Source of the DNA: Deltaproteobacteria bacterium | GTDB taxonomy: Bacteria > Desulfobacterota > DSM-4660 > Desulfatiglandales > HGW-15 | Assembly (NCBI GenBank): GCA_019308525.1 | Contig: JAFDIC010000004.1 | Location: 1 to 37,562 of the forward strand | Reading direction: 5' to 3' | DNA: 37,562 nucleotides | In this document: piece by piece, positions 6,453 to 26,407 of the stretch | Layout of the letters: the number at the start of each line of letters is the position of its first letter | How positions within the stretch are numbered: position 1 is the first letter of the stretch | Notes under the pieces: generated by a model | The model's database searches: none | Told to the model about the DNA's origin: nothing | What the model saw: the letters and a program-made list of their open reading frames with translations, nothing else | Program-made: the position numbers and the translations under genes

Positions 6453-7046
6453 CTAAAAATAAATCATCAGGAAGTTGCGAATTGCATCAGGAAAAAGGTT
6501 GTAAAGCTCCCCGGCCGGCAGTTTCACCTTCAGGATAGCCTTGAAGACGAGCGTAATGAGAAAGGCTGCCAGCACCGAACCGACCAATATTTTTCTTTCC
6601 CTGTAACCCTCCCGAACGGTCAGCAGAGGACAAAATACGAGGGTTGTGGGAAGATAGCCCAACTTGGGCACCATGAAAACATAGATCAGGAAATAGGCCG
6701 AATACTCCAGTGTCCTGACCCAGTTCCACACTTCATCGAGGGGCAGGATCTGGTCACAGAAATGGACTTGTTCACGACGCACGGTCTTGAGAAGGGACTG
6801 GATTAGAAATCCAATGGCAAACAGGAGCAAACCCCCGAGGCATATCAACGGCCAAAAGCAGGGTTGCTGAAAAAAACTGATATTTTCGATCCACTTGGTC
6901 TGGGTTCGGATCTGTGCCAGGAGAACAGCAGTCATTACAACCATGATGGCTGCAAACAGGGCCTCCCCTTTCCGATGAGCAGACGAATCACCCCTTCCCT
7001 TCCCAAAGTCATCTGTCTCTCTTTGAAAAGTCTCTTGGTTGCTCAT
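6453..7046 (-). CDS. tctB: Tripartite tricarboxylate transporter, small membrane subunit TctB
   Basis: Small membrane subunit of the TTT transporter, 197 residues from the ATG at 7046. A longer frame opens at 7091, but AGGGGA stands about 5 nt before the 7046 ATG, and the extra residues would be encoded by the intercistronic hairpin. The start therefore lies just after that hairpin. The protein has four hydrophobic segments: one near residues 33-50, one near 65-85, one around the WNWVRTLEYSAYFLIY region, and a C-terminal one. It ends with a pattern close to the TctB-like fragment at 14162-14338. It sits between tctC and tctA and forms the membrane complex with TctA. Confidence 0.88.
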   Translation of the reverse strand: MSNQETFQRETDDFGKGRGDSSAHRKGEALFAAIMVVMTAVLLAQIRTQTKWIENISFFQQPCFWPLICLGGLLLFAIGFLIQSLLKTVRREQVHFCDQILPLDEVWNWVRTLEYSAYFLIYVFMVPKLGYLPTTLVFCPLLTVREGYRERKILVGSVLAAFLITLVFKAILKVKLPAGELYNLFPDAIRNFLMIYF

Positions 7047-7056
7047 GGTGTCCCCT

Positions 7057-7093
7057 GGTTTGAACCGGGGATAGAGGCCTCCCCGGTTCAACC
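7057..7093 (-). promoter_or_regulatory. Intercistronic hairpin between tctC and tctB
   Basis: Two inverted arms, TGAACCGGGGA (7061-7071) and TCCCCGGTTCA (7080-7090), form a perfect 11-bp stem with an 8-base loop. The stem extends further across one bulged base. It lies 20 nt after the tctC stop and just before the tctB ribosome-binding site. No T-run follows, so it is not a normal intrinsic terminator. Such stems behind binding-protein genes usually protect the 3' end of the upstream message, so more receptor than membrane subunit is made. It also comes close to the tctB ribosome-binding site and could limit tctB translation. Confidence 0.7.
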
Positions 7094-7113
7094 TTGCTTA
7101 TGAGGGATGAGAA

Positions 7114-8055
7114 TCACTTTGCAAGCATTCTATTGATCCTGGCAAAGGTCTCACGGTCAGACCCAATCTGTTTCCTGGATTTCTCAGGACCCATCCAGTA
7201 CAGTTCTGCGCCTGTATCCGCCGCCAGTTTCTGGGCCTTTTTGCTGAATATGGCCGCCTTGGCTGCCGCTGAAACTTTCTCTATTACTTCCTGCGGTGTA
7301 CCTTTCCTGACAAACAGGCCGTTCCAGAGTGTCATCCCCAAGTCCGGGTTGATTTCACCCACCGTTGGGACATGGGGTACCAGGGGTATCCGCTTTCTGG
7401 TAATGGAGACCAGGATCTTCACCTTGTCCATGCACGGCAAGATCGTCTGGATAGTCGTATTTATCACATCCGCGTCGCCGGAGGCAAGGGTATTGCAATC
7501 TAGAGAATCGAAGGAGCCTTCCGAACTGAAGGAAAAACCCATTTCCTTCGCGGTGGCAAGGGTAATCTTGGTGGGGATCAGGTTCACACCGAAGTGACCG
7601 AGGGCCACTTTATGTGATTTGGCATACTTAGCCAGGTCTTGAATCGTGTCATAGGGGGCATCGGCCCTTGTCGCGAGGACAAACGGATATGTCAGGAAAA
7701 TACCCACGGGCACGAAGGTATCCTCCCTCAGGCCCTCTATGCCCACCAGGTGCCCGATGACCGGGACAGCAATTGTGAATGAACCGATCATTGAACCATC
7801 GGGCGGCGCATTGGCCACTACCATGGCTCCTGGAAAGGGCCCTCCCCCGCCGCTCGGCTTGTTTACTACTGCTGCCGGCACACCATACATTGACTGAAAT
7901 CTATCGGCGATCATCCTGGTCAGAACGTCTTCCAGGTCCCCCGGTGGCCAAGGAACGATAAAGGAGACAGGTTTGTCCGGGTATGCCATGGTTGGTGTTA
8001 CCATGAGCCCTACCAATAGTGCTCCCAGGAAAATGCTTGCCAGAACCTTTTTCAC
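7114..8055 (-). CDS. tctC: Tripartite tricarboxylate transporter substrate-binding protein TctC (Bug family)
   Basis: Periplasmic receptor of the TTT system, Bug family, 313 residues. The start is GTG at 8055, with AGGAGG 7 nt before it. A signal peptide (MKKVLASIFLGALLVGLMV) ends at TMA-YPDKPV, and the mature protein begins with the family's YPDKPVSFIVPWPPG motif. There is no lipobox cysteine, so it is a free periplasmic protein. The GGGGPFPGAMVVANAPPDG segment is the usual second ligand-binding loop. It is the first gene of tctCBA and lies 191 nt downstream of the IclR gene, so control by that regulator is likely. A perfect receptor ribosome-binding site plus the downstream hairpin fits high receptor output. 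Confidence 0.92.
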   Translation of the reverse strand: MKKVLASIFLGALLVGLMVTPTMAYPDKPVSFIVPWPPGDLEDVLTRMIADRFQSMYGVPAAVVNKPSGGGGPFPGAMVVANAPPDGSMIGSFTIAVPVIGHLVGIEGLREDTFVPVGIFLTYPFVLATRADAPYDTIQDLAKYAKSHKVALGHFGVNLIPTKITLATAKEMGFSFSSEGSFDSLDCNTLASGDADVINTTIQTILPCMDKVKILVSITRKRIPLVPHVPTVGEINPDLGMTLWNGLFVRKGTPQEVIEKVSAAAKAAIFSKKAQKLAADTGAELYWMGPEKSRKQIGSDRETFARINRMLAK

Positions 8056-19838: not shown

Positions 19839-20001
19839 CCCAAGCACCCCATCAACGAAGGGGTGGAGGCTCTTTCACCCGAAAGATCAGGCCTCTACTG
19901 AAACATCGAATCATCTCTTTGGGAGATCCCAGCCTACTATCGGCGGGGCTTTTCGTTAAGGGGAGGCGGAAATCGGCTGACTAGCCGCAGGGATCATGGC
20001 G

Positions 20002-20470
20002 TTAATCCCTGATGCCCGGTGTGAAAAACACGGCAATCGCCGCCATGACAGCAGAAATCAGGGAAACCGCTTGTCCGCGATAGCCGAAAATATGGGGACT
20101 GCCGTTCCACCGACACCTAGTGCTGCGAAGATCCCGCAAAGCATGATAAACTCCCGCAGGTCGTGGATAACGGAAATGCCCATGTACCCAAAGGACAAGA
20201 GGAGAGTGGAAGGGATGATCACCCACTTCGGGCCGTAGCGGTCGTACGATTTCTCCACAAAGCTCACTGCCAGGGCGAAAACCACAAAATTGAGGAAAAC
20301 AGCCAGGGATATGGAACTTCGGTCCCAGCCGAGGTCCAGGATCATGGGCTTGAACATGATCCCGATGGATACCCTTGCGCCCTGATTGAAAAAAGGATTA
20401 TGGACGAGACTGCCAGCACATACAAGCCGCAGAAAACCTTCGTCCTCCGGGCTACTACCCCTGAATTCAT
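20002..20470 (-). pseudogene. MFS transporter relic, frameshifted and truncated
   Basis: A gene start with a good ribosome-binding site (GGGGAAGG, 6 nt before ATG 20470) opens a carrier N-terminus, KVFCGLYVLAVSSIILF. The frame then breaks in a T-run near 20390. It continues one frame over as FFNQGARVSIGIMFKP and on through several helices to IADKRF, where a second frame change occurs (GQAVSLISAVMAAIAVFF). Only about 150 of roughly 400 codons remain. This is a decayed major facilitator gene, related in style to the two intact carriers in the window. It lies divergent from argG. Confidence 0.75.
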
Positions 20471-20584
20471 GTGTGGCCTTCCCCTTGGAAAGTTACCCGT
20501 CCACGGTGGTGGCACATCCTATTCTGTCCGTTCAAACCCTGCCAGGCAAGAGGCCTGAATACCGCCTGGGACGAAGAAAAACTA

Positions 20585-20613
20585 TTGACAAAGAATCGGA
20601 GTTTTGCCATACA
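20585..20613 (+). promoter_or_regulatory. Promoter candidate for the argG-carA-carB leader
   Basis: A perfect TTGACA (20585-20590) is followed at 17 nt by CATACA (20608-20613), matching three of six -10 positions; a TACAAG two bases further on is an alternative. Transcription would start near 20620. This leaves about 23 nt before the leader ORF and 190 nt before argG, the right scale for an attenuator leader. Confidence 0.5.
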
Positions 20614-20642
20614 AGGGAAAATGAATTGAAAAGGATACCTTA

Positions 20643-20723
20643 ATGATCTCATATTCAGCCGAGGACAGACGCCGTAACCGCCGATACCCCCTAGGGGCCG
20701 GTGGTTTTCTGCGTTGGACCTGA
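20643..20723 (+). CDS. Arginine-rich leader peptide of argG-carAB (26 codons)
   Basis: A short ORF with its own ribosome-binding site (AAGGA, about 7 nt before the ATG at 20643). Codons 9-14 read Arg-Arg-Arg-Asn-Arg-Arg (AGA CGC CGT AAC CGC CGA, 20667-20684), and one more Arg codon comes near the end. The TGA is at 20721-20723. The peptide has no other recognisable domain and is not expected to act as a protein. Its role would be to make the ribosome stall when Arg-tRNA is scarce. It overlaps the RNA hairpins described in the next entry, and it precedes three genes that serve arginine synthesis. Confidence 0.85.
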   Translation: MISYSAEDRRRNRRYPLGAGGFLRWT

Positions 20724-20785
20724 TGTAACTGTAAAGATATCCCAAGACAAAAGAAAACCCCGGCACCTGCCGGGGTTTTCTTTTT
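20676..20785 (+). promoter_or_regulatory. Transcription attenuator of argG-carAB (competing hairpins)
   Basis: Two alternative structures can be read from the sequence. Structure one: AACCGCCG (20676-20683) pairs with CGGTGGTT (20699-20706), with an inner CCCC/GGGG stem, and leaves the terminator free. Structure two, the antiterminator: GCCGG (20697-20701) pairs with CCGGC (20760-20764) and GGTTTTCT (20703-20710) with AGAAAACC (20752-20759), 13 bp with one bulged base. This uses the left arm of the terminator. A ribosome stalled on the Arg codons (20667-20684) covers the first arm of structure one, so structure two forms and transcription continues. A ribosome that finishes at 20723 covers the 20697-20710 segment and the terminator forms. 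Confidence 0.85.
20749..20785 (+). terminator. Intrinsic terminator inside the argG leader
   Basis: A perfect 17-bp stem, AAAAGAAAACCCCGGCA (20749-20765) with TGCCGGGGTTTTCTTTT (20768-20784), has a loop of two bases in the drawn form, in practice four after opening a pair. The 3' arm ends in the T-run. It lies 24 nt before the argG ATG and no + strand gene precedes it except the leader ORF. It therefore controls entry into argG. The A-rich 5' arm also makes it bidirectional in principle. Confidence 0.9.
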
Positions 20786-20809
20786 CGAAAAAGATCGGGA
20801 GGCAATCAT

Positions 20810-22069
20810 ATGGACAGGATTAGGAAAGTGGTATTAGCTTACAGTGGAGGCCTGGACACCTCAGTCATCGTTCCCTGGTTGAGGAACAATTACAGGGGCT
20901 GCGAGGTAATCTGTTTCACCGCGAACGTGGGGCAGGAAGAGGAGCTGAACGGCCTTGAGGACAAGGCTCTCGCGTCTGGCGCGAGCAAGCTTGTTATTCA
21001 AGACCTCCGGGAAGAGTTTCTCAGGGACTACGTGTTCCCTACAATGCAGGCCGGAGCAGTGTATGAGCGGGATTATCTCCTCGGCACTTCCATGGCTCGC
21101 CCGCTCATTGCGAAAAGGTTGGTGGAAGTCGCGGAATCAGAGCAGGCCGATGCGGTTGCCCACGGCTGCACCGGAAAAGGCAATGACCAGGTACGCTTCG
21201 AACTCACCGTAATGGCGCTCAACCCCAAGCTCAAAATCATTGCCCCGTGGCGCGAGTGGGGGATCCGCAGCCGCGAGGACGCCATCCGTTACGCTGCTCA
21301 ACACAATATTCCACTGGCCCAGACCGAGAAGGACATCTACAGCAGGGATCGCAACATCTTCCACCTCTCCCATGAGGGTGGCCCCCTGGAAAACCCCTGG
21401 AACGAGCCTGAAAAGGATATGTACCAGATGACAAAAAGTCCAGAAGAGGCCCCTGATGATCCTGAATACATTGAAATTGGTTTTGAGCAGGGGAACCCCG
21501 TCAGCCTGAACCGGGAGGAGCTGGATGCCGTGGAGTTGTTTGACAGGCTCAACACCATTGCCGGGCGTCATGGTATTGGCCGTGTGGATATGGTGGAAAA
21601 CAGGCTGGTGGGGATGAAGAGTCGAGGAGTATATGAGACCCCGGCCGGGACCGTCCTCTTCCGGGCCCACCAGGCCCTGGAAAGCATATGCCTGGACAAA
21701 TACACCATGCACTACAAGGATTTCGTCTCCGTCAAGTATGCGGAACTTGTCTACAACGGCATGTGGTTCACCCAACTGAGGGAAGCCCTTGATGCGTTTG
21801 TCCGGGCTACCCAGCGGAATGTTTCCGGCACCGTCAGGCTGAAACTATTCAAGGGGAATACCATCGTGGCAGGCCGCAAGAGCCCGACCAGCCTCTATCG
21901 AGAAGACTATGCCTCCTTTGGAGCCGATGATGTGTACAACCAGAAGGATGCCCATGGCTTTATTCAGCTTTTCGGTCTGCCCCTGAAGGTGGAGGCATTG
22001 CTTGCCATAGATGGCGGTGGAGAGAGTCCGTACAGGAGACCTGACTATAGCAAGTTCAAGAGAGACTGA
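20810..22069 (+). CDS. argG: Argininosuccinate synthase
   Basis: Cytoplasmic ligase joining citrulline and aspartate with ATP to give argininosuccinate, the next-to-last step of arginine synthesis. It has 419 residues, near the family's 400-450. The ATP pyrophosphatase loop AYSGGLDTS is at residues 10-18. The citrulline/aspartate-binding [14 protein letters not shown] follows near 120, and IAPWREW and [14 protein letters not shown] are also conserved. GGGAGG lies 7 nt before the ATG. It is the first structural gene behind the arginine attenuator and is followed after 2 nt by carA, so argG, carA and carB form one transcript. argH is not adjacent. Confidence 0.97.
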
Positions 22070-22071
22070 GA

Positions 22072-23178
22072 ATGGATGCAAGGTTGATATTGGCAGATGG
22101 CTTGTGTTTCGAAGGCCAGTCCCTGGGCGCCATGGGGACCGCTGTCGGCGAAGTGGTCTTTAACACGGCCATGGCAGGTTACCAGGAAATCTTGACGGAT
22201 CCGTCCTATCATTTCCAGTTGGTCACCATGACCTATCCACAGATCGGGAATTACGGCATCAACCCCAAGGGCTTTGAATCCCCACGTCCCTATGCCGCGG
22301 GACTGATCATAAGGGAATACAGCCCCGTAGTAAGCCACTGGCAGGCCAATGAATCCCTCGACGAGTACCTCAAGTGTCACGGCGTGGTGGGTATAAGCGA
22401 AATAGACACCCGGGCGCTCACCAGGCACCTGAGAGACCATGGCGCTCAAATGGGCATGATTACCACTTCGGATGAACCTGGGGAAAGGCTCCTGGAAAAG
22501 CTGCTGGGAGGCAGAAAATTGGTGGGAAGAGACCTTGTAAGAGAGGTTGCCACGCAATCAGAATATACCTGGCCCCTGGAGGATAGGGAGGACAGGGATG
22601 ATAGATTGCGATTGAAGGTTGCAGTATATGATTTTGGGGTGAAATTCTCCATTCTCAGGTCCCTGTACCGGCACGGGTGTGATCTCAAGATCTTTCCGGC
22701 CCGCACACCTGCGGAGGAAATACTCGCCTTTGACCCGGACGGGATACTTCTTTCCAACGGCCCCGGAGACCCAGAACCGGTCGAATATGCCATAGCCAGT
22801 ACCAAGAAGCTCCTGGGGAAGAAACCCATCTTCGGCATTTGCTTGGGCCATCAGATACTTGGCCTTGCCCTGGGCGGTAGCACCGCCAAGCTGAAATTCG
22901 GGCACCACGGGGCCAATCACCCGGTCATGAACCTGTCAACCGGGGTCGTTGAGATAACTTCTCAGAATCACGGGTTTATCTTGGACAAGGACAGCCTTCA
23001 AGATACTGATGTGGAGATTACCCATATCAACCTGAACGACGGCACCCTTGAAGGCATCATGCACAGATCCCTGCCGGCCTTTTCTGTTCAATACCATCCT
23101 GAGGCAGCCCCAGGTCCCCATGACAGTGGCTACCTTTTCGAACTTTTTGTGAAGCAGATGGTGGAGTTCAATGCCTAA
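22072..23178 (+). CDS. carA: Carbamoyl-phosphate synthase small subunit (glutaminase)
   Basis: Glutamine-hydrolysing subunit that supplies ammonia to CarB for carbamoyl phosphate. It has 368 residues, the normal length. The class-I amidotransferase triad is visible: Cys257 in GICLGHQ, and His342 and Glu344 in [10 protein letters not shown]. The N-terminal CPSase small-chain domain ([24 protein letters not shown] region) is intact. It starts 2 nt after argG and overlaps carB by 8 nt. Carbamoyl phosphate feeds both arginine and pyrimidine synthesis, so its position behind an arginine-sensing leader is noteworthy. Confidence 0.97.
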
Positions 23179-26100
23179 ACGAAAAGACATAAAAAGGATC
23201 CTGGTCATCGGCTCCGGCCCAATAGTCATCGGACAGGCCTGTGAGTTCGACTACTCGGGCACCCAGGCCTGTAAGGCCCTCAAGGAAGAGGGCTTCATAG
23301 TGATTCTCGTCAACAGCAACCCGGCAACCATCATGACAGACCCGGAATTCTCCGACAGGACATATATCGAGCCTCTTTACCCTGAAACAGTTGCCAGGAT
23401 CATCGAAAACGAACGACCCGATGCCCTGTTGCCTACCCTGGGAGGCCAGACCAGTCTCAACATTGCCGTGGACCTGGCAGAGAGCGGGATACTGGAAGAG
23501 TACGGGGTCGAGTTGATCGGTGCAAGGCTTGAAACCATCAAGATGGCGGAAGACCGTGAACTCTTCCGCAGGGCCATGCAGGAGATAGGCCTGAATGTCC
23601 CCGCGGGCGGATGTGTGAAGACGCTCCGAAAGGCAGAAGTCCTGTGCGAACAGGTGGGATTTCCCTTGATTATCCGCCCCTCCTATACCCTTGGGGGCAT
23701 AGGGGGGAGCGTGATCTACAACCGGGAAGAATTTGCCCCGGCCGTCCAGTTGGGCCTGAACACAAGCCCGGTTCACGAAGTCTTGTTGGAGCAATCCGTA
23801 CTGGGCTGGAAGGAATACGAACTCGAAGTGATGCGTGATAGCGCCGACAATTTTGTTATTGTCTGCTCCATTGAAAATCTTGATCCCATGGGAATCCACA
23901 CCGGCGACAGCATCACCGTGGCTCCGGCCCAGACCCTTACGGATGTTGAACTCCAGGCAATGCGTGATGCCGCCAGAAGGATCGTGACAAAAATTGGGGT
24001 TGAAACAGGAGGAGCCAACATCCAGTTCGCCCTCAATCCTGCCTCAGGGGAAATGGTGGTCATTGAAATGAACCCCCGTGCTTCCCGCAGTTCGGCCCTG
24101 GCCTCAAAAGCGACCGGGTTTCCCATCGCAAAAATCGCCGCCAAGCTCTCGGTTGGATACCACCTCCACGAGATCCCGAATGATATCACCCGTAAAACAC
24201 CTGCATGTTTCGAACCCGCCATTGACTATGTGGTGGTTAAGATCCCCAGGTGGGATTTTGAAAAATTTCCTAATGAGAACAGGCAGCTCACCTCTCACAT
24301 GAAGTCACTAGGCGAGGCAATGGGGATCGGGAGAACATTCAAAGAGGCATTGAACAAGACCCTCCGTTCCCTTGAAAACGGCTGGTCGGGCTTTCACGCC
24401 AATGACTCTGAAGGAATAGGCAGGCTGACCCGCCAGGAACTGGTAGACGAGCTCCGGCACGGGACCCCGGATAGGATCCTGAAGATTTGGAAGGCCATGG
24501 AAATTGGCATGTCCCCTTTGGAGATAGCTACCATCTCCCAGGTTGATATCTGGTTCCTGGAGAACCTGTACCAGCTTTATGAGTTCGAGAAGGGACTGAA
24601 AGAAGAATTTCAAAACCGACATACCATCTCCGGGAACAAGCTTCGAATGGCCAAGAAATACGGGTTTTCAGACAAGCATATTGCCCTCTTGACCGGAAAA
24701 AGTGAGACCGAGGTGCGCAGGATAAGGAAATCCCATGGCATTATGCCATCTTATAAGATAGTGGATACCTGTGCTGCTGAATTCGATTCATACACTCCTT
24801 ACTACTATTCGACCTATGACCCTGAAAATGAGTCAAAGCCGTCCGCCAGGAAGAAGGTCATAATCCTCGGCGGAGGGCCGAACCGGATAGGCCAGGGGAT
24901 TGAATTCGATTATTGTTGTGTCCACGGTATACTTGCCTTGAAAGAACTGGACATTGAAGCGATTATGATCAACTGCAACCCCGAAACCGTGAGCACGGAC
25001 TACGATGTGGCAGATAAGCTCTATTTCGAACCCCTCACCTACGAGGACGTATTGAACGTAATTGAACTGGAAAAACCCGACGGGGTCATTGTCCAGTTCG
25101 GGGGCCAGACTCCCTTGAAGCTGGCCCTGGACCTGGAAAAGGCCGGTGTGCCGATCTGGGGCACCTCCCCTGATTCCATAGACCTGGCAGAAGACCGTGA
25201 TCGCTTTGGCGCGCTCCTGGACTCCCTTGACATCCCTCACCCCCAGTACGGAACGGTCACCGACCCCGAGGAGGCCATCCAGGTTGGAGAAAAAATCGGT
25301 TTCCCCCTCATGGTAAGGCCTTCATACGTACTGGGTGGACGAGCCATGGAAATAGTGTACGATGCTGATTCCCTCAGGCAATACATGGAGAATGCCGTCA
25401 TGGCATCAGAGAAACACCCCGTCCTCTTGGACCGGTTTCTCGAAGATGCCTTTGAATTTGACGTTGATGCCATGTCGGACGGGAAGCAAACGCAAATCTG
25501 CGGGCTCATCCAGCATATCGAAGAGGCCGGGGTACATTCCGGGGACAGCATGGCGGTATTGCCCCCTTTCCTCCTCAGCCGCGATCAATACGAGGATATA
25601 AGGGAATACACTTCCGCCCTTGCCAAGGCCTTGAACGTAAAGGGGCTCATAAACATACAGTTCGCGATCATGTTTGACACCCTCTTTGTCCTGGAGGTGA
25701 ACCCCAGGGCATCCCGCACGGTCCCCTTTGTCAGTAAGGCCACCGGGATTCCCATGGCCAAGCTGGCGGTTCAGGTAATGGCCGGCAAGACCCTGGGCCA
25801 GCTAAACGTGAATCTCCCTAACCAACTGCCCTACGTTGCGGTCAAAGAGTCCGTCTTCCCCTTTGAACGTTTTCACAATACGGACATCTTCCTGCGGCCT
25901 GAAATGAGGTCCACCGGAGAGGTCATGGGAATCGCACCCACCTTTGGGGAGGCCGTGCTCAAGGCATTTCAGGCAACTGGAACCACGATCCCCGAAAAGG
26001 GGACCGTGTTCATAAGCGTCAATGACAACGACAAGGCCCGGGCGGTACCGATAGCAGAAGGACTGAGGAAGCTCGGGTACCAACTGACCGCTACCAGGGG

Positions 26101-26407
26101 CACATCAGAATACATGAACAAGCTGGGCATAGGGGTAAGGAGCGTCCTGAAGGTCAGGGAAGGAAGACCCAATGTTGTGGACGAGATCAAGAACGGGAAG
26201 ATCAACATCATAATCAACACCCCCCTGGGGGAGCGGTCGAGGGAGGATGAATATGCCATAGGCTGGGCGGCCATCAAGTCCCGCGTGCCTTTTATCACGA
26301 CCCTGTCTGCGGCAGAGGCCATCGTACGGGGCCTCAGGGCCAAGAAAAAGGGACCCTTTACCAACAAATGTCTCCAGGAATACTATGGTCAATGGAAACA
26401 TCCATGA
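23171..26407 (+). CDS. carB: Carbamoyl-phosphate synthase large subunit
   Basis: Synthetase subunit of 1078 residues that makes carbamoyl phosphate from bicarbonate, ammonia from CarA and two ATP. Two homologous ATP-grasp halves are evident: the first begins at [20 protein letters not shown] (residues 9-28), the second at [20 protein letters not shown] (near 560). An oligomerisation domain lies between, and a C-terminal MGS allosteric domain starts at [16 protein letters not shown]. The ATG overlaps the carA stop by 8 nt and GGAG precedes it, so translation is coupled. The gene ends against a convergent MFS gene with a shared inverted repeat. Confidence 0.97.

Follow-up and report, generated by a model that had tools for sequence, protein, structure and literature searches.

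A putative arginine-sensing leader-peptide attenuator before argG-carA-carB in deltaproteobacteria, probably acquired with argG from Anaerolineae

The leader before argG-carA-carB

Bacteria are known to regulate arginine synthesis by ArgR-type proteins, and the textbook example of genes controlled through translation is attenuation by a leader peptide. The deltaproteobacterial DNA analysed here (37,562 nucleotides, the whole of which we call the window) raises the question of whether arginine synthesis can also be controlled in this second way, with a short ORF crowded with arginine codons and a terminator-like hairpin lying ahead of argG, carA and carB. Our answer is that the layout is real and conserved, that an arginine attenuator explains it well, and that the mechanism is read from anatomy and comparison. 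Very probably the leader before argG-carA-carB would sense charged Arg-tRNA by ribosome-mediated attenuation of transcription, the deltaproteobacterial copy having probably been transferred with argG from Anaerolineae.

The three genes run in one direction and their identities are backed by NCBIfam models: argG, for argininosuccinate synthase (20810–22069, + strand; NF001770, 628.5 bits, cut-off 334), carA, for the small subunit of carbamoyl-phosphate synthase (22072–23178, + strand; TIGR01368, 492.6 bits, cut-off 307.35), and carB, for its large subunit (23171–26407, + strand; NF003671, 1625.4 bits, cut-off 599). Ahead of them, direct reading of the + strand gives a predicted leader peptide ORF of 26 codons plus TGA (MISYSAEDRRRNRRYPLGAGGFLRWT; 20643–20723), which starts with the ATG at 20643, stops at 20721–20723 and has a Shine-Dalgarno-like AAAGGA (20630–20635, + strand) with the ATG 7 nt downstream; the original prediction had likewise described 26 codons and a ribosome-binding site. 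Its claim of five Arg in six codons is equally borne out, the control codons at 20667–20684 (+ strand) being AGA CGC CGT AAC CGC CGA. In the whole window, counting all frames and whether or not they fall in an ORF, at least five Arg per six codons are reached at three sites on the + strand and at none on the − strand. For the RNA of 20600–20800 the fold lies 4.2 sd lower than those of its dinucleotide shuffles (z −4.2), with 0 of 200 as low.

A likely leader promoter is predicted from the −35 hexamer TTGACA (20585–20590, + strand), an exact match, and the −10 hexamer CATACA (20608–20613, + strand), for which CATATT stands in 7 of 14 other leaders. All 15 deltaproteobacterial leaders scanned have TTGACA with a 17-nt spacer upstream, and in all 15 the promoter-like elements end 28–44 nt 5′ of the leader ORF. 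From the predicted promoter, transcription would start at about 20620. A simple consensus promoter and terminator scan reported neither the leader promoter nor the leader terminator. It gave a different, weak promoter match at 20626–20655, and it missed the terminator because its rule wants five T in the eight positions past the stem and the T-run lies mostly within the stem. Further upstream, about 600 nt (19960–20560) separate an acyl-CoA ligase gene from the leader; this region, with a single listed + strand ORF of at least 100 aa (131 aa), is possibly a gene remnant.

Further segments of the + strand complete the anatomy. Directly before argG, and ending 25 bases 5′ of it, is a predicted intrinsic terminator (20749–20784), whose position agrees with the original prediction but whose stem, on direct reading, is not a perfect 17 bp; it has 16 bp, an ACCU loop and a T-rich 3′ side. 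Segment B (20697–20710), the 5′ arm of the antiterminator, and segment C (20752–20764), its 3′ arm and at the same time part of the 5′ arm of the terminator, are supported by pairing and folding tests and together make 13 bp, the count predicted, with U20702 bulged. Segment A (AACCGCCG; 20676–20683) lies within the Arg codons and, in the window fold, can pair with B.

The mechanism that we propose would run as follows. Transcription would set out from about 20620, with a ribosome translating the leader behind the polymerase. When Arg-tRNA is scarce, the ribosome would stall at codons 9–14 and leave B free, and the free B would pair with C as this emerges, so that the terminator is blocked and argG-carA-carB are transcribed. 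When Arg-tRNA is plentiful, the ribosome would reach the stop at 20721 and cover the 3′ half of B, C would fold into the terminator, and the RNA would end at about 165 nt.

Arginine codons and the proposed RNA switch in related loci

Relatives of argG were sampled from genome contigs as the best 80 of 323 confirmed, and further argG were drawn from the order of one relative, in which 178 of 194 genomes had a match, with 30 loci among the matches listed. Among the sampled loci we counted 20 distinct deltaproteobacterial ones with argG of the window type, the window included, the other 19 having 78–90% identity to the window argG. Two of these (L005 and L009) are without a readable upstream region and one (L091) is cut by a contig end, its Arg codons and terminator still being visible, which leaves 17 loci for the ORF count. 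An ORF with at least five Arg in eight codons no more than 300 nt upstream of argG, the feature whose absence from relatives had been named beforehand as refuting, is present in 15 of the 17 (window included), against a background for the same rule of 8/510 dinucleotide shuffles and 10/458 random places of the same loci. No other amino acid rises above 5/17 under this run rule, Pro coming next with 5/17, and a Lys run of five in eight is found at no locus among the sets tested for amino-acid runs.

The two loci that make up the 17, L093 and L095, have window-type argG and the terminator but no Arg ORF, and in them the sensor is lost or altered. In L095 a promoter-like sequence is followed by an ATG and immediately by TAA. 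Among other deltaproteobacterial argG an Arg leader is found in 0/13 (L103, with only 12 nt upstream, is omitted). A third deltaproteobacterial argG type (L096, L097 and L098; 70–71% identity, about 398 aa) is without an Arg leader.

The interruptions of the Arg run by N, I, S, Y or P vary with the species while the Arg codons are kept, and outside the run the peptides of the 32 leaders compared diverge widely, which speaks against the peptide being a functional small protein. In ten hand-chosen leader pairs, one leader being used twice, Arg positions show 15 synonymous and 14 non-synonymous changes as against 21 and 67 at other codons (p = 0.0096); that Arg positions change synonymously more than the others fits selection for Arg and not for the DNA letters alone. 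One might suppose that the position of the ribosome regulates argG but that the ribosome is slowed by the run of positive charge, or by general translation stress, and not by Arg-tRNA charging. Runs of charged residues can slow translation, and shorter Anaerolineae leaders with merely three Arg in four codons occur. The persistence of Arg codons despite different interruptions in different species, the lack of a Lys run of five in eight at any tested locus, and the service in arginine synthesis of the genes behind the leaders (argG with carA or carAB, argG-argH, argC) speak against this explanation, which we consider very unlikely.

The choice among Arg codons bears on what a sensor of Arg-tRNA charging would read. 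CGU, CGC and CGA make up 88% of the 84 Arg codons in 11 leaders, compared with 62% of 275 in the argG genes of the same species and 32% of 492 in 15 long window ORFs, and for CGU plus CGC the comparison of leaders with argG genes gives p = 0.0022, leader Arg codons being constrained by RNA structure as well. A single isoacceptor decodes the CGU/CGC/CGA box in E. coli, and because the control codons are mostly of this box the sensed tRNA is probably that isoacceptor.

The predicted RNA switch itself was assessed in 32 leaders, selected because of the Arg run that they carry (15 deltaproteobacterial argG, 9 Chloroflexi argG and 8 Chloroflexi argC), the near-copies L014 and L161 and the weaker L115 being omitted from the terminator, pairing and folding sets. 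All 32 have a predicted intrinsic terminator between the ORF stop and the gene, which in the 15 deltaproteobacterial leaders lies 17–31 nt past the leader stop. In 14 of these 15, none of 200 base shuffles equals the B:C duplex in strength, and in the remaining one (L006) the duplex beats 194 of 200. For the 17 Chloroflexi leaders, 0 to 63 of 200 shuffles match its strength, the duplex being weak in L016 (50/200 as low), L020 (45/200), L154 (63/200) and L158 (60/200).

The C arms were also permuted among the B arms, in tests that ignore shared ancestry. For the deltaproteobacterial leaders, own arms reach −24.2 kcal/mol and swapped arms −21.2 kcal/mol (p = 0.0001, n = 15), and restricting the own-versus-swapped comparison to the extension of B:C beyond the terminator stem yields p = 0.00135 (n = 15). 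The Chloroflexi argG leaders give p = 0.0076 for own versus swapped arms (n = 9), with no own-arm advantage in the extension outside the terminator stem (p = 0.68, n = 9), and in the Chloroflexi argC leaders own arms are no better than swapped ones (p = 0.30; extension p = 0.08; n = 8). When the 15 deltaproteobacterial leaders are aligned, 96.4% of terminator cells and 76.2% of antiterminator cells are paired (2/500 shuffles as high for the latter), and change on both sides is seen in 4 of 15 antiterminator pairs (82/500 shuffles as high); these column-wise counts are modest because the distal antiterminator helix shifts between species. The conservation of pairing in relatives on which the original prediction had staked itself is thus seen in the terminators of all 32 chosen leaders and in the co-change of the antiterminator before argG.

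The predicted A:B pairing can form in the window (20676–20683 with 20699–20706, 8 bp with one G-U, in the window fold), but it shows no covariation across relatives in any of three leader sets (permutation p = 0.21, 0.09 and 0.42). A conserved A:B protector hairpin is not supported by this covariation test, though the hairpin is present in the window fold. Folded as free RNA, only 10 of the 32 leaders, the window among them (17 vs 5), favour A:B over B:C.

Folding was carried out with ribosome positions set by a rule of thumb. A ribosome on the third Arg codon, with the 3′ arm of the terminator still unmade, leaves B:C with 9–24 pairs in 32/32 leaders, and a ribosome at the stop codon lets the terminator form with 7–19 pairs, again in 32/32. 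With the ribosome stalled and the full RNA at equilibrium, the terminator side of the minimum-energy fold has at least nine pairs in 21/32 leaders and 0 pairs in the window leader. The switch therefore needs co-transcriptional timing. In trp, the terminated state depends on a ribosome that covers a segment at the stop codon. Here too, on these models, the terminated state would most likely depend on a ribosome that has reached the stop and lies over B, and not on a conserved A:B protector.

The same results have to be weighed against a simpler account, in which the terminator is an ordinary one, the Arg ORF is kept for another reason (as a translated small protein or through GC-rich repeats) and no structural switch exists. 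The lack of covariation in the Chloroflexi argC arms and in A:B is on its side, as are the 21/32 stalled-ribosome folds in which the terminator wins at equilibrium and the retention of the terminator by L093 and L095 without the ORF. It is opposed by the co-change of B and C in the argG leaders, by the wide variation of peptide sequence outside the Arg run, and by the position of the terminator, which directly before a biosynthetic gene would be sensible only if it can be bypassed. We hold this account to be even more improbable than a slowing by charge, and retain the attenuator governed by Arg-tRNA.

Arginine leaders in Chloroflexota and the probable origin of argG

The reach of such leaders was followed to argC, argJ and argF, which were searched in 23 of the genomes with sampled argG loci. 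By the strict rule an Arg leader stands before 8 of 9 arginine-type Chloroflexota argC, the ninth having 4 of 8, in a count that left out a tenth genome (G015). The argC count omits L146 and L162 (no run of five) and the second copies L164 and L165. L165 has a TTG-started ORF with five Arg in eight. Six paralogous Chloroflexi argC loci are without an Arg leader, none is found at the 10 deltaproteobacterial argC counted, and in mixed groups an Arg leader is found for 1/22 argJ and 1/30 argF.

In the class of Bellilinea (Anaerolineae), the 30 best-scoring argC upstream regions, a non-random choice from 129 genomes with a match that shares four with the earlier argC count, include 8 strict cases and 19 that are strict or relaxed with a terminator. 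For 88 argG upstream regions of the class, also non-random (the 30 best-scoring loci plus 60 hand-picked, minus 2 too short), the corresponding figures are 6 and 22, and for 273 random 500-nt control windows they are 1 and 3. The argG leader is patchy in the Bellilinea class.

Other upstream layouts are seen before Anaerolineae argG (L021, L022, L024, L027–L030 and L067; L047, L049, L055, L057 and L061). Some Anaerolineae argG have very short Arg ORFs (such as MKFQRRRRN and MIFQRRRCS) with a ACCACGATGG-type hairpin, and Caldilineaceae argG have upstream peptides with RRRPAGSGR. Short ORFs with ELRFRRPLT occur in Bellilinea L048, where GGTTGG could pair with the CCAACC of the hairpin, and in L053, from Bellilinea caldifistulae GOMI-1, whose argG is preceded by a shorter ORF containing Arg and by a terminator-like hairpin. 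Before argC, a conserved leader of the RFPRIRR type is combined with a very strong CCCCCCGG terminator in L325, L328–L330, L334 and L338.

The Chloroflexi argG leaders have their best −10 match ending 6–10 nt 5′ of the ATG in 9/9 cases (L013, L015, L016, L017, L020, L111, L113, L118 and L131), and their mRNA is therefore predicted to be nearly leaderless.

What lies behind argG bears on the signal that is sensed. In the fetched flanks carA follows argG at 14 of the 20 deltaproteobacterial loci, the window included, and neither carA nor carB is found in the fetched flanks of Chloroflexota argG. The next gene after argG was checked by model search in five loci (L002, L010, L013, L016 and L017). 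It is argH in L002 (followed by carA), L013 and L017, while in L010 aspartate carbamoyltransferase (6581–7759; TIGR00670) stands behind argG instead of carA; the next ORF after argG in L016 has no match at 1e-60. As carAB also feeds pyrimidine synthesis, the terminator might answer to a pyrimidine signal or an RNA-binding protein, with the peptide merely modulating it. The frequency of carA behind argG and the aspartate carbamoyltransferase of L010 would suit such a signal, and for Pseudomonas the part available of one paper discusses a pyrimidine-dependent attenuation of carAB (PMC4997734). The Arg leaders of Chloroflexota, which stand before argG or argC, with argH in L013 and L017 and no carA or carB in the fetched argG flanks, count against it, as does the lack of any Rfam family at gathering in the window or in the loci of 10 relatives. 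We regard a pyrimidine signal or an RNA-binding protein as the least probable of the explanations considered, and keep arginine as the signal that the leader would sense.

A tree built from 65 selected argG proteins nests the deltaproteobacterial type in Anaerolineae, far from ordinary deltaproteobacterial argG. Support is 95/89 for the 20-row set with L020 and 98/95 for the 35-row set, which includes further Chloroflexi; resolution is lacking at 13 of the 62 inner branches, and clean clades of the leader carriers of the two groups are not settled. Among 85 genomes of the order of G001, the nearest relative, 73 had a match and the close argG type was found in G001 only; the argG loci of this order (L228–L256) stand outside the upstream counts. 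From the nesting of the deltaproteobacterial argG inside Anaerolineae it follows that gene and leader would probably have crossed phyla together, and the simplest reading of the sequences is a transfer of argG with its attached leader from Anaerolineae to deltaproteobacteria.

ArgR (PF01316) is over the cut-off in 0/20 relatives, 0/194 genomes and 1/150 genomes, with two sub-cut-off matches in each set, and thus in 1 of the 344 genomes sampled from both groups (194 + 150); the model is over the cut-off in 8 of 14 control genomes. As ArgR is missing across the whole sampled order, its absence does not single out the leader carriers, and the idea of the leader as a substitute for an ArgR lost in the carriers alone was dropped.

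On balance, if with considerable reserve, we favour a wider picture, in which these leaders would form a transcription attenuator regulon specific to arginine, the first of its kind in bacteria. Arg leaders of Anaerolineae would control the pathway at its two ends, argC and argG-argH, as substitutes for ArgR, and would sense how far the tRNA-Arg for CGU, CGC and CGA is charged, for argG from an almost leaderless mRNA. Gene and sensor would then have jumped to sulfate-reducer-related deltaproteobacteria, there to govern carAB and hence carbamoyl phosphate for pyrimidines too.

Comparison with known systems

Arginine-responsive control at the RNA or peptide level has several known forms. On the fungal CPA1/arg-2 arginine attenuator peptide the ribosome stalls at high arginine and the effect is on translation; the resemblance lies in a leader peptide that governs a homologue of carA according to arginine. 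T-box RNA binds tRNA directly, and uncharged tRNA brings about antitermination. Arginine T-boxes share with the leader the control of arginine genes at the RNA level, the proposed sensor of the leader being the translating ribosome, and no T-box is found among the 33 Rfam matches at E ≤ 5 in 20540–20860 or at gathering in the window. T-boxes for arginine are named in the part available of a 2005 survey, which there gives no RNA structure as conserved ahead of the arginine operons of actinobacteria (PMC1262725).

Among bacterial leader peptides, the available portion of the source on the carA region of P. aeruginosa mentions a leader peptide and attenuation second-hand and links them to pyrimidines (PMC4997734); the Pseudomonas carAB leader is set apart by that link. 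The rbfL leader peptide of Staphylococcus aureus has two Arg codons and senses arginine limitation, but according to the excerpt available its action is translational, a paused ribosome blocking the ribosome-binding site of rbf so that scarcity lowers expression (PMC13009471). Consecutive Arg codons in orf34 of Salmonella speF sense the arginine supply and alter RNA folding, as far as the accessible text of that study goes, but there the gene is for ornithine decarboxylase and the means are Rho-dependent termination, exposure of a ribosome site and RNase G (PMC6386406). The Arg leader would instead have an intrinsic terminator, as predicted, before arginine synthesis genes.

A bacterial Arg leader before arginine synthesis genes was not found among the papers listed from the open-licence literature, subscription literature being mostly outside the search, and the original claim that no such attenuator is described for argG or carAB agrees with this. 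Neither 'arginine' nor 'argG' occurs in the main text of one wide-ranging survey of terminators (PMC2965389), and a delta-proteobacterial regulon survey has neither 'argG' nor 'leader peptide' (PMC545781). A proteobacterial regulon survey gives ArgR, in the section available, as conserved in gammaproteobacteria and absent from the other classes studied (PMC5343134).

Should the conserved sensor be true, one amino acid would be added to the class of leader-peptide attenuation. The Arg leader would suggest how bacteria without ArgR control the arginine pathway, would be a natural case of a whole attenuator crossing phyla with its gene, and would let the theory be tested that control codons are those whose tRNA uncharges first. 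The ribosome-mediated mechanism of that class is the textbook one of the his, trp, thr, leu and phe attenuators. On the leader strand, the Rfam models give 24.4 bits for His_leader, 26.8 for Leu_leader and 15.7 for Phe_leader, far below gathering (49, 50 and 55, respectively), and the leader therefore belongs to none of these three families. Like the his, trp, thr, leu and phe attenuators, it has a short ORF rich in the codons of the product, alternative pairings and a terminator before the operon; it differs from them in its Arg codons, in an A:B protector whose conservation is not supported, and in its occurrence in Chloroflexota.
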